Below, one piece after another: positions 25,841 to 28,406 of a stretch of 64,000 bases of DNA. Position 1 is the first letter of the stretch. Every line of letters starts with the position of its first letter. Under the pieces are notes generated by a model, which worked only from the letters and a program-made list of their open reading frames with translations, was not told where the DNA came from and did not search any database. This stretch comes from Gammaproteobacteria bacterium (GTDB lineage: Bacteria > Pseudomonadota > Gammaproteobacteria > Burkholderiales > Nitrosomonadaceae), in the NCBI GenBank assembly GCA_030431985.1, contig JAUIIB010000005.1, positions 1 through 64,000 of the forward strand, read 5' to 3'. Made by a program: the position numbers and the translations under genes.

Positions 25841-27373
25841 TTAAACCTGAGGGTGCGCCCGTTCCATCTTACTGTGCAGTTTATTCAACGCACTTAAATA
25901 AGCTTTTGCTGAGGCCACAACAATATCGGTATCCGCACCGTGACCATTAACAATACGATCGGACTTTTGCAAACGAACAGTAACTTCACCCTGAGCGTCA
26001 GTACCACTGGTTATATTGTTAACCGAAAATAACTGGAGTTGCGCGCCACTGGATAATAATTGTTCAATCGCACAGAATGTTGCATCGACCGGGCCGCTAC
26101 CTTCCGATTCAGCCTGCATTTCACTGCCATTGTCCGATATGACGATACTGGCGTGCGGAATCTCACCAGTTTCACAACGAATACCTAACGACACCAGGCG
26201 GTACCGTTCCTGCAGCACAAGCACTTCATCAGAAACTAATGCATGCAAATCTTCATCAAAGATTTCATGCTTTTTATCCGCCAATTCCTTGAATCGCTTA
26301 AAGGTATGATTAAGCATTTCTTCAGATTCCAGTTCGATACCCAACTCTTTTAAGCGAGTACGAAACGCGTTACGCCCCGAGTGTTTACCAAGCAACAATT
26401 TATTTGCTCCCCAACCCACGTCTTCGGCACGCATAATTTCATAGGTCTCACGGTGCTTCAGTACACCATCCTGATGAATCCCCGATTCGTGGGCAAAGGC
26501 ATTGGCCCCGACAATTGCCTTATTCGGCTGTACTGGAAAACCTGTAATGCCTGAAACAAGCTTACTCGCCGGAACAATATGTTTGGTATCTATTCGGGTA
26601 TCGCAAGGAAAGTAGTCTTGGCGTGTACGAACCGCCATGACAACTTCCTCCATGGATGCATTACCAGCACGTTCACCCAACCCATTAATAGTACACTCAA
26701 TCTGACGTGCACCATTCATAACTGCAGATAATGAATTTGCCACCGCAAGCCCAAGATCATTATGACAATGAACCGAAAAAACCGCCTTATCTGAATTTGG
26801 AATGCGCTCCCTTAACGTGCGAATCAACCCACCGAACTGCTCCGGCATGGTATAACCAACGGTATCTGGAATATTGAGCGTTTTAGCGCCTGCATCAATT
26901 ACTCTTTCAAGTATTTTGCATAAAAAATCAATATCAGAGCGCCCAGCATCCTCTGGAGAAAATTCGATATCATCGGTATATTCACTTGCCCATTGTATTG
27001 CTTTTACTGCCTGCTCGATCACTTGATCCGGTGACATGCGCAGTTTGTTTTGCATGTGGATCGGCGAAGTCGCTATAAATGTATGAATACGTGCGGCACC
27101 GGTATTTTTTAACGCATCTCCAGCACGTCTAATGTCCACTTCCATTGCACGCGCTAACCCACACACTACACTTTCTTTAACCGATTCAGCCACGGCCCGA
27201 ACTGCTTCAAAATCACCGTCAGACGCTGCAGGAAAACCCGCTTCAATAACATCCACACCCATACGTTCTAGCTGCCACGCAATACGGACTTTTTCTTCTT
27301 TTGTCATTGAAGCGCCAGGACTTTGCTCACCATCACGTAACGTTGTGTCAAAAATAATCAATTGATCTTGCAT
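25841..27373 (-). CDS. leuA: 2-isopropylmalate synthase
   Basis: First enzyme of leucine synthesis: condenses 2-oxoisovalerate with acetyl-CoA. The start at 27373 (510 residues) has a GGAGC ribosome site seven bases upstream; the frame is open 14 codons further but without support. The TIM barrel begins [18 protein letters not shown], the metal-binding [13 protein letters not shown] is near residue 200, and the C-terminal LeuA regulatory domain (about 390-500) that binds leucine is complete. The region upstream encodes a leucine-rich leader peptide, so transcription is probably also controlled by leucine supply. Confidence 0.96.
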
Positions 27374-27412
27374 TTTATATGCTCCATTTCTGGAAGAAAG
27401 ATTGAATCGAAA

Positions 27413-27445
27413 CAAAACCCTCTGTAATTGAATCGACGGGTTTCG
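27413..27445 (-). terminator. Candidate attenuator hairpin upstream of leuA
   Basis: On the minus strand CGAAACCC (27438-27445) pairs with GGGTTTTG (27413-27420) through a 17-base loop, and the 3' arm runs into a T-rich TTTTGTTT. It lies 36 bases after the leader-peptide stop and about 40 before leuA. An alternative pairing, CGAAAC with GTTTCG (27408-27413), excludes the GGG arm, and CGATTCAAT occurs twice nearby. This is the expected place for a terminator in a leader-peptide attenuator; folding has not been computed. Confidence 0.4.
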
Positions 27446-27481
27446 AATTTAGAAATAAAAAATGGAAAGAATGATAAAAAA

Positions 27482-27574
27482 TTAGCGCGCAAGGCGCAGC
27501 AGAAGCAGCAAATTTTCTAGCAATGCTGTCAATTTGGCGGGAGAAAAATAGAATAAAACAGATAAAGCAGTCAT
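27482..27574 (-). CDS. Leucine-rich leader peptide of leuA (attenuator)
   Basis: A 30-codon frame between pssA and leuA, ATG at 27574 and TAA at 27482-27484. Eleven of 30 residues are Leu, five of them in a row (TTG CTG CTT CTG CTG) followed by Arg-Leu-Ala-Arg at the end. Consecutive codons for the pathway end product just before a stop, upstream of the first leucine gene and followed by a hairpin with T-run, are the mark of a ribosome-mediated attenuator. A weak GAAG lies before the ATG. A short GC hairpin plus six T's directly overlaps the stop as well. Too short for standard gene callers. Confidence 0.7.
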   Translation of the reverse strand: MTALSVLFYFSPAKLTALLENLLLLLRLAR

Positions 27575-27582
27575 AGTGCTTC

Positions 27583-27611
27583 AATATAAACAGTTTTTCT
27601 AGCTTTTGCAA
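27583..27611 (-). promoter_or_regulatory. Candidate sigma-70 promoter of the leuA leader
   Basis: TTGCAA (27606-27611), a 17-base spacer, and TATATT (27583-27588) on the minus strand, just behind the pssA stop. Transcription would begin near 27577, only about three bases before the leader ATG, so the leader peptide would be translated from an almost leaderless message; read-through from pssA is an alternative. Confidence 0.5.
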
Positions 27612-27626
27612 TAGGTTAAGATGAAC

Positions 27627-28406
27627 TTATGGTGCTGGAGTATGAGATTCACTCTTCTTCTTATTCTTAATAAATCGCCACAGTTTGATCAAGTAACCCG
27701 ACATCGCATAACTTGTAAACAAGAAAAATAAAACCACAGGTGGATGACTCGGAATCAAAACAAAAAAGAACAGCACTAATAATAGAATAGTAAAAAAAGG
27801 AACCCGCTTTCCAAGATTAATATCTTTTCCACTGTAAAAAGGGATATTACTTACCATGGTCAGACCGGCAAATAAAGTAACAATCAGCACCAACCATTTA
27901 ATTTCCGAGCCCGACACTTGAAAATCCAGCATTACCCACACCAGTCCCGCTATTAATGCAGCAGCCGCAGGACTTGGCAAACCCTGAAAAAAGCGTTTGT
28001 CTATCACATGGATATTGGTATTAAAACGCGCCAATCGTAGCGCAGCACATGCGCAATAAATGAATGCAGTAATCCACCCTAATTGCCCCATTTCCTTTAG
28101 CGCCCATTCATACATGATCAGTGATGGTGCAACGCCAAACGAAACCATATCAGACATGCTGTCGTACTCGGCGCCAAACTCACTTTGAGTATGCGTCATT
28201 CTAGCCACACGTCCGTCAAGACCATCGAGCACCATCGCTATAAAAACAGCAACCGCAGAGTGCTCAAAATTACCATTCATCGCTTGAATGATGGCATAAA
28301 AACCAGCAAACAAAGCTGCAGTTGTAAATAGATTGGGTAACAAATAAATACCACGGCGACGTAGGCGTGACCGTGCAGCAACAGGTTCCGACTGTGGTTC
28401 AGACAT
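27627..28406 (-). CDS. pssA: CDP-diacylglycerol--serine O-phosphatidyltransferase
   Basis: Inner-membrane enzyme that makes phosphatidylserine from CDP-diacylglycerol. The 259-residue protein is a multi-pass CDP-alcohol phosphatidyltransferase with the family motif D64-G65-x2-A68-R69-x8-G78-x3-D82-x3-D86 complete, and a basic N-terminus (ARSRLRRRGIYLLPN) typical of the Bacillus-type PssA rather than the E. coli peripheral form. psd, the next step, lies 150 bases upstream on the same strand. Confidence 0.94.
   Translation of the reverse strand: MSEPQSEPVAARSRLRRRGIYLLPNLFTTAALFAGFYAIIQAMNGNFEHSAVAVFIAMVLDGLDGRVARMTHTQSEFGAEYDSMSDMVSFGVAPSLIMYEWALKEMGQLGWITAFIYCACAALRLARFNTNIHVIDKRFFQGLPSPAAAALIAGLVWVMLDFQVSGSEIKWLVLIVTLFAGLTMVSNIPFYSGKDINLGKRVPFFTILLLVLFFFVLIPSHPPVVLFFLFTSYAMSGYLIKLWRFIKNKKKSESHTPAP

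Follow-up and report, generated by a model that had tools for sequence, protein, structure and literature searches.

The gap between pssA and leuA in the DNA analysed here, a stretch of 64,000 nucleotides (64 kb) from a member of the Nitrosomonadaceae that is referred to as the window, probably contains a ribosome-mediated leucine attenuator of leuA. By comparison of leuA upstream regions, a short leader ORF, its Leu codons, a mini-hairpin at the end of the ORF (H1), the position of the stop codon, a near-leaderless start and the association with leuA emerge as the conserved features, and from these we infer the ribosome stall, the direction of control and the output. A sequence-only reading of the same DNA had proposed ribosome-mediated attenuation with a terminator and a competing antiterminator: the sensor part of the proposal is conserved among the loci compared, but a terminator with its antiterminator is not the conserved core. 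The leader ORF is located in the pssA-leuA gap, and pssA, leuA and the leader are all on the minus strand, with the following layout.

27627-28406, minus strand: pssA, named from family matches.
27606..27611, minus strand: -35-like element TTGCAA, the TTGC of which recurs at the same place in many relatives.
27583..27588, minus strand: -10-like element TATATT, ending 8 nt 5' of the leader ATG.
27482..27574, minus strand: leader ORF of 30 codons, MTALSVLFYFSPAKLTALLENLLLLLRLAR, probably near-leaderless, with no Shine-Dalgarno sequence.
27497..27511, minus strand: five consecutive Leu codons, TTG CTG CTT CTG CTG, the G of the last codon being the first base of H1.
27485..27497, minus strand: H1, mini-hairpin GCGC-N5-GCGC, between the Leu codons and the stop codon and adjoining both.
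27482..27484, minus strand: leader stop codon TAA.
27445..27481, minus strand: G-free, pyrimidine-rich tract 3' of the stop codon.
27407..27446, minus strand: H2, the 'terminator' of the sequence-only reading, with arms 27440-27446 and 27407-27413 and inner AAACCC/GGGTTT.
27382..27385, minus strand: leuA Shine-Dalgarno sequence GGAG.
25841..27373, minus strand: leuA, 2-isopropylmalate synthase, the gene thought to be regulated (HMGL-like and LeuA_dimer matches; NCBIfam NF002087 equivalog above cut-off).

The 30-residue peptide with 11 Leu residues, five of them consecutive, that had been read at 27574-27482 was confirmed in the sequence, and a short leader ORF with codons for the end product, as in leu-type ribosome-mediated attenuators, is present. 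The run of five (27511-27497) had been placed just before the stop codon; the run stands but this position does not, as RLAR intervenes. It is the RLAR codons that form H1, absent from the earlier reading, as a GCGC-CUU-GCGC mini-hairpin (27497-27487, -5.5 kcal/mol, 4 bp), the DNA being GCGC-CTTGC-GCGC followed by TAA. Among the 836 ORFs of 20-60 amino acids in the 64 kb window, the leader ORF alone has a run of at least five Leu, and three have a run of at least four.

The comparison drew on the leuA upstream regions of 226 loci, 216 of them distinct. Besides the window itself, the sources were 36 further genomes of its genus, additional families within the order and 80 named GTDB records. 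Within 260 nt of leuA, 114 of the 216 distinct regions carry a strict motif, [CT]TGCGC-N5-GCGC. A core motif, defined by at least two Leu codons (the last being CTG or TTG), CGC-N(2-8)-GCGC and a stop codon within 33 nt, was found in 129 of the 216 regions, as compared with 0.15 expected from dinucleotide shuffles, and its carriers are called core loci. Thirty-five of the 37 loci of the window's genus are core, and the other two (L021 and L023) have H1 with Leu-Leu-Pro-Leu before it. Named core carriers include Nitrosomonas marina (L148), Nitrosovibrio tenuis (L159), Nitrosospira multiformis (L164), Aromatoleum buckelii (L183) and Pseudothauera nasutitermitis (L199). The core motif is missing in 87 of the 216 distinct loci; the named GTDB records in which it was not found include Thauera aminoaromatica (L224), Azoarcus indigens (L219), Pseudothauera lacus (L188) and Sulfuriferula multivorans (L173).

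The addition of 69 leuA loci from across the class, obtained from 69 of 103 genomes with a match, brought the set to 285; the 216 loci had been deduplicated and the added 69 were unchecked, at least L216 and L255 looking identical. A wider test with no hairpin criterion asked for a -10 box followed at 4-12 nt by an ATG, and for an ORF end rich in Leu, and was passed by 168 of the 285 loci, 119 of which are also core and 49 non-core; by this test the leader is missing in 117 of 285. In L081 (LeuA 79% identical), as well as in L098, L184, L173 and L193, no such leader was found in the 290 nt upstream of leuA, so that the element appears to be absent or to have been lost in some lineages. Most, though not all, of the non-core loci are gammaproteobacterial, and a few gammaproteobacterial records also occur among the core loci; the groups are therefore not clean taxa and, since the loci share descent, the counts are not independent. 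With this in mind, the leucine leader ORF that had been noticed ahead of leuA in the window is conserved well beyond the genus.

The leader pattern appears to sit almost only at leuA. In 41 genomes, 23 of the 24 occurrences of the strict pattern followed by TAA are at leuA (reversed control pattern, 3 occurrences); a promoter-ATG-CTGCTGCGC pattern gave 37 hits in 200 genomes of the order, and by coordinates 30 of these lie at leuA (control, 1). One of the genomes from the window's genus has the leader motif twice, the additional copy (G022:C63:17678-17698) preceding a partial second leuA match. The covariance models of Rfam 15 gave no leader family for the window stretch, for 20 loci and for 9 loci (E up to 5, 1 and 0.5, respectively); the rows that were dropped are sraL, on the window's other strand (E 1.9), and MIR9486, near the contig end of L204 and away from the leader.

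The promoter-like arrangement that had been described, TTGCAA (27611-27606), 17 nt, TATATT (27588-27583) and the ATG 8 nt further on, was found as stated. By itself such a site is at chance level in the window scan (2 found, 1.9 expected), and it is its conservation in relatives that makes it credible. The leader start is ATG in 127 of the 129 core loci, and a -10 box with at least five of six matches ends 5-10 nt 5' of it in 123 of 129, a count that is biased towards good -10 boxes by the choice of the leader start among in-frame starts by promoter score; for comparison, a -10 box precedes 142 of all 660 ATGs in the same stretches, leader starts included. A Shine-Dalgarno-like word precedes the leader start in none of the 129 core loci and leuA in 121 of 129. 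Thus, with a conserved -10 box near the ATG and no Shine-Dalgarno sequence, translation of the leader probably begins at the extreme 5' end of the transcript, which, judging from the conserved distance between the -10 box and the ATG, probably starts at the leader ATG or within a few bases of it. The proposal of a promoter within the pssA-leuA gap with a nearly leaderless start is therefore supported, again with conservation well beyond the genus.

The five-Leu run itself, the conservation of which in relatives had been put forward as a check on the attenuator, is not conserved: among the 129 core loci the run is of five codons in 2, four in 4, three in 76 and two in 47, so that two or three Leu codons are the conserved form. 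The body of the ORF shows a pN/pS ratio of 0.54 (36 independent close pairs of relatives, ungapped ones counted), as in a translated ORF, and the last seven codons are nearly invariant even at silent sites (pS 0.06 versus 0.25), as in an RNA element. From the pN/pS value and the conservation we infer that the leader ORF is translated. The lengths of the indels speak against translation, since they are not mainly multiples of three (8 of 26 in the ORF, as compared with 27 of 127 between the leader stop and leuA). Conservation of an RxxR ending at the peptide level was considered and rejected, because the C-terminal residues vary (GRAH, ASAN, RR or R in other loci), whereas the hairpin persists in the RNA.

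Along with the near-leaderless ATG and the two or three Leu codons, H1 is a conserved part of the 285 leuA upstream regions; it is a hairpin of at least 4 bp whose first base lies within a Leu codon and which either contains the stop codon or adjoins it. In the 119 core loci of the wider test the hairpin at the stop has a calculated energy of -4.94 kcal/mol, as opposed to -1.11 kcal/mol in shuffles, and in the 49 non-core loci of -6.98 kcal/mol, as opposed to -1.98 kcal/mol; on average, single-locus shuffles are as good as the real hairpin in 10% and 7% of cases, respectively, and 44 of the 49 non-core loci reach -3 kcal/mol or better. Since the GCGC motif served to select the 129 core loci, their H1 pairs are fixed, and independent support comes from the 49 non-core loci chosen without a hairpin criterion. 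There, the letters of H1 differ, for example GCCC-GGGC, or CUGCC-CUAG-GGCAG, in which the loop holds the stop codon, and two-sided changes of the pairs are evident between GCGC/GCGC in core loci and UGCC/GGCA or GCCC/GGGC elsewhere. One pair is GC in 135 loci, CG in 22, UA in 14 and UG in one, and never broken (172 of 173 loci, the core pairs being fixed by selection). The stop codon lies inside H1 in 39 of 172 loci and follows it in the others, by at most 6 nt in 126 and by more in 7. A stop codon in the loop was also observed with GCGC-type hairpins (GCGCCGCUAGGCGC, GCGCUAAGCGC and GCGCUAGCGC) in L041, L204, L222 and L280, and also in L115, L201, L212 and L218, so that the place where the ORF ends, with respect to a hairpin of similar form, may differ among loci. 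Since its loop measures 2-6 nt in core loci and the sequence of its arms changes, H1 is unlikely to be a DNA-binding palindrome of fixed spacing. On these comparisons, H1 is a conserved RNA element.

Constraint on H1 as RNA would also be expected if the small ORF were not regulatory, H1 serving to stabilize a small leader RNA at its 3' end or to mark where it is processed, and the Leu codons reflecting a short hydrophobic peptide, and the leader ORFs are indeed Leu-rich overall (23% Leu, in loci partly chosen for Leu). However, in core loci H1 directly adjoins the Leu codons, and this layout is found almost only at leuA, which is hard to explain without leucine sensing and makes this alternative highly improbable.

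For the attenuator, the following path can be proposed. A promoter in the pssA-leuA gap would start the transcript at or near the leader ATG, and a ribosome would translate the short leader ORF. When leucyl-tRNA is scarce, the ribosome would stall on the Leu codons and H1 would stay open, because the last Leu codon belongs to its 5' arm; a stall at an earlier Leu codon would leave the 3' arm of H1 and the downstream tract outside the ribosome. Which arm a stalled ribosome covers is based on standard ribosome footprints. With ample leucine, the ribosome would reach the stop codon in or beside H1 and leave, and H1 would re-form. The state of H1 and the position of the ribosome would set leuA expression, H1 acting as a gate in place of the first hairpin of classical attenuators. 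In the non-core leaders, Leu-Pro precedes the stop codon in 26 of 44 cases (e.g. L249, L257, L261, L262 and L281); proline before a stop codon slows release, and this ending could hold the ribosome over H1.

The output of such a gate would most likely be premature termination between the leader stop and leuA, with the help of Rho acting on the G-poor RNA or of weak hairpins specific to a clade, H2 being an example, rather than by a single conserved intrinsic terminator. With the possible outputs taken separately, termination of some kind is the one that we would on balance expect, masking of the leuA ribosome site is unlikely, and an output of another nature is slightly less probable still.

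Classical transcription attenuation, in which H2, or H1 with a U-run in the window, is an intrinsic terminator and the stalled ribosome favours an antiterminator, has clear precedents: Leu leaders with a terminator and an antiterminator are established in enterobacterial leu operons with candidates in other Gram-negatives (PMC6123439), and a leuA attenuator has been proposed for Shewanella, for which an anti-antiterminator stem is drawn (PMC6123439, PMC2659441). In the window, the hairpin at 27413-27445 had been taken as a terminator. The hairpin does exist as a predicted fold (-9.6 kcal/mol, as good in 6 of 200 shuffles), but in the 27413-27445 fold TTTTG is the paired 3' arm, followed by UUUCGAUUCAAUC, and in the longer H2 fold (27407-27446) all of TTTTGTTT is inside the hairpin, followed by UUCAAUC. 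The T-run is thus mostly or wholly within the hairpin, and no U-run follows the full one. The window terminator scan did not list H2, which its loop limit of 8 would exclude; it listed H1 with CTAATTTTTT as terminator-like, one site found as against 1.0 expected in shuffles, i.e. at chance.

Across loci, terminators were searched for with a home-made stem plus U-tail score 3' of the leader stop. In the Nitrosomonadaceae set, terminator-like sites are enriched three- to fourfold (23% of 52 loci versus 6% in shuffles; with a stricter score, 13% versus 3%), whereas in the other core loci they are not (5% of 77 versus 4%). The H2 counterpart shows two-sided changes in four pairs among 37 aligned Nitrosomonadaceae loci, in which it is typically AAAAUUCG-N4-CGA(A/G)UUUU; H2 therefore seems to be a real hairpin in Nitrosomonadaceae, typically with a UUUU end, and a weak terminator there is possible. 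The whole leader of the window (27400-27580) folds no better than shuffles (z 0.26), and the part 3' of the leader ORF (27375-27480) slightly better (z -1.59, 12 of 200 as good). The region 3' of the leader folds better than shuffles in the three groups of loci (mean z -1.46, -1.00 and -0.72), so that some downstream structure appears to be general.

For the competing pairing that had been proposed, no clearly conserved partner of the H1 arms emerged in shuffle tests on the three groups: downstream complements were at best slightly above shuffles for the 3' arm (mean z -0.35, -0.50 and -0.02) and gave mean z values of -0.34, -0.61 and -0.44 on the 5' arm side and, for the Leu codons, of +0.11 and -0.68 in the two core groups. 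With a weak terminator signal confined to the Nitrosomonadaceae set, none in the other core loci and no clear partner of H1, the classical terminator/antiterminator pair is not the conserved core of the element, and as an account of its output it is distinctly unlikely.

A second conserved hairpin, NCCU-GGCG-AGGN', was observed approximately 10-20 nt 3' of H1, usually with ACG(C/U) 4-9 nt later, in L206, L216, L221, L225, L247, L258, L262, L289, L307 and others, 70-145 nt upstream of leuA. The core word of this GGCG-loop hairpin occurs in 28 of the 285 leuA upstream regions, and its flanks can pair in 24 of 27 loci with five types of pair; Rfam gave no match at it in the three carriers scanned (L198, L204 and L206). 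Its loop GCG and ACGY could form a small pseudoknot.

As for Rho, the G-free run of the window (27445-27485, 41 nt) is the longest on this strand, the other strand having runs of up to 65 nt. The tract is U-rich, not C-rich (24 T, 7 A and 6 C of 37), and the best 78-nt stretch of the leader for C minus G is equalled or exceeded by 6.8% of all such stretches. Across core loci the trend is clearer: G makes up 3% of the 25 nt after the leader stop in Nitrosomonadaceae and 11% in the other core loci, versus 17% and 28% further on, and pyrimidines 78% and 70%, versus 52% and 49%; in 119 core loci, the positions 10-20 nt beyond H1 have 1% G and 49% C. In the non-core loci the tract is weak (G 18% in the 25 nt after H1) and, since these loci are without a strongly G-poor tract, a Rho loading site would not be universal. 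Words observed 3' of the C-rich tract, within 60 nt of the leader stop, in the 77 other core loci are GCAGTA (15), GTACC (19), ACAATT (12) and AATTCG (10). The G-poor tract might serve for the loading of Rho, or it might be kept unstructured. Since it would stay uncovered during a stall on the Leu codons, Rho alone would not give the expected sign of control unless a further step intervened; in a pure Rho model, the sign is not explained by occlusion alone. The system known as tna is an example of Rho-dependent leader attenuation with a short leader ORF. The present element resembles this type in its short leader ORF, followed by G-poor RNA in core loci, and differs from it in that the role of Rho is putative and the tract is not conserved in non-core loci and is U-rich in the window. 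The tna system is also mentioned in PMC1262725.

The alternative to termination is translational attenuation, in which the ribosome-binding site of leuA would be hidden by the pyrimidine-rich leader RNA until a ribosome on the Leu codons exposed it, as drawn for the actinobacterial LEU element. A simple form of it, masking of the leuA Shine-Dalgarno sequence by the tract, was suggested by a 7-bp match in the window and one fold, and was then not supported across loci: in both core groups, the post-stop tract is a poorer match for the leuA Shine-Dalgarno sequence of its own locus than tracts from other loci are (z +1.8 and +3.2), the non-core loci being neutral (-0.6), and there is no excess over shuffled tracts (z 0.08 and 0.24). 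Pairing of the whole leader ORF with the leuA start exceeds that of a same-length control by 5.1 expected pairs in Nitrosomonadaceae, 2.6 in the other core loci and 2.7 in non-core loci. The predicted access of the Shine-Dalgarno sequence with a ribosome on the Leu codons rises by 0.14 in non-core and 0.075 in other core loci, where a leader and start from the same locus also pair better than exchanged ones (other core, -13.86 versus -13.17, sd 0.26; non-core, -13.45 versus -12.58, sd 0.42).

However, access rises by only 0.023 in Nitrosomonadaceae, in which own partners are slightly worse than exchanged ones, and it does not rise in the window (0.14 free, 0.11 stalled). Shuffled ORFs are nearly as effective, so that composition explains most of the effect of leader-to-start pairing, the small exception being the non-core loci, where the real ORF lowers access slightly more than shuffled ORFs do (-0.052, sem 0.017). 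Furthermore, a ribosome at the stop codon is predicted to open the Shine-Dalgarno sequence as well as one stalled on Leu. By taking all this into account, translational attenuation is rather unlikely. Both this and the classical scheme differ from the gate formed by H1 and the ribosome in output only, and the odds of the three therefore overlap.

By anatomy, the actinobacterial leuA leaders are the nearest published parallels. The LEU element is described as an ORF with a Leu run, a pseudoknot and a base stem between the Leu codons and the leuA Shine-Dalgarno sequence (PMC1262725), and Streptomyces lividans LeuL1 as leaderless and without a typical terminator (PMC8079986). A leaderless Leu-run ORF ahead of leuA and the lack of a typical terminator are features seen here too (PMC8079986, PMC1262725), but in the present element the conserved structure is H1 at the stop codon, and pairing of the Leu codons with the Shine-Dalgarno sequence is not clearly above composition. 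With enterobacterial leuL and Shewanella leuA the element shares a Leu-coding leader ORF before leuA and, where this ORF ends, a hairpin that can be likened to the anti-antiterminator stem depicted for Shewanella leuA (PMC2659441); it differs in having no clearly conserved antiterminator or U-tailed terminator, a near-leaderless start with no Shine-Dalgarno sequence, an H1 that encloses or touches the stop codon and no Rfam leader family. Sinorhizobium trpL is likewise a leaderless attenuator ORF starting with its own AUG (PMC10117765), but from an alphaproteobacterium and described as an attenuator for tryptophan rather than leucine. A literature search, in which subscription papers were thinly covered, returned no account of the beta-/gammaproteobacterial element; Vitreschak et al. 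2004 (FEMS Microbiol Lett 234:357) may include some such leaders.

We tentatively propose, with a confidence somewhat short of even, that the element represents a type of leuA attenuator found class-wide in beta-/gammaproteobacteria, with a near-leaderless ORF for the end product, the last control codon and the stop codon built into or against one small hairpin, and no conserved intrinsic terminator or antiterminator, so that the ribosome opening or releasing the hairpin would decide. Leucine attenuation is textbook matter, but the textbook parts of the output are not the ones conserved here; what is kept, through two-sided changes in many lineages of the class, is the hairpin around the control codons and the stop codon. 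If the proposal is correct, it would describe an attenuator working without a dedicated intrinsic terminator, provide an annotation rule for leader ORFs ahead of leuA and make signalling from leader translation to termination testable in a small natural system. It would also parallel the leaderless, terminator-less actinobacterial leuA leaders, the mechanism of which is left open in the relevant passages of PMC8079986 and PMC1262725.
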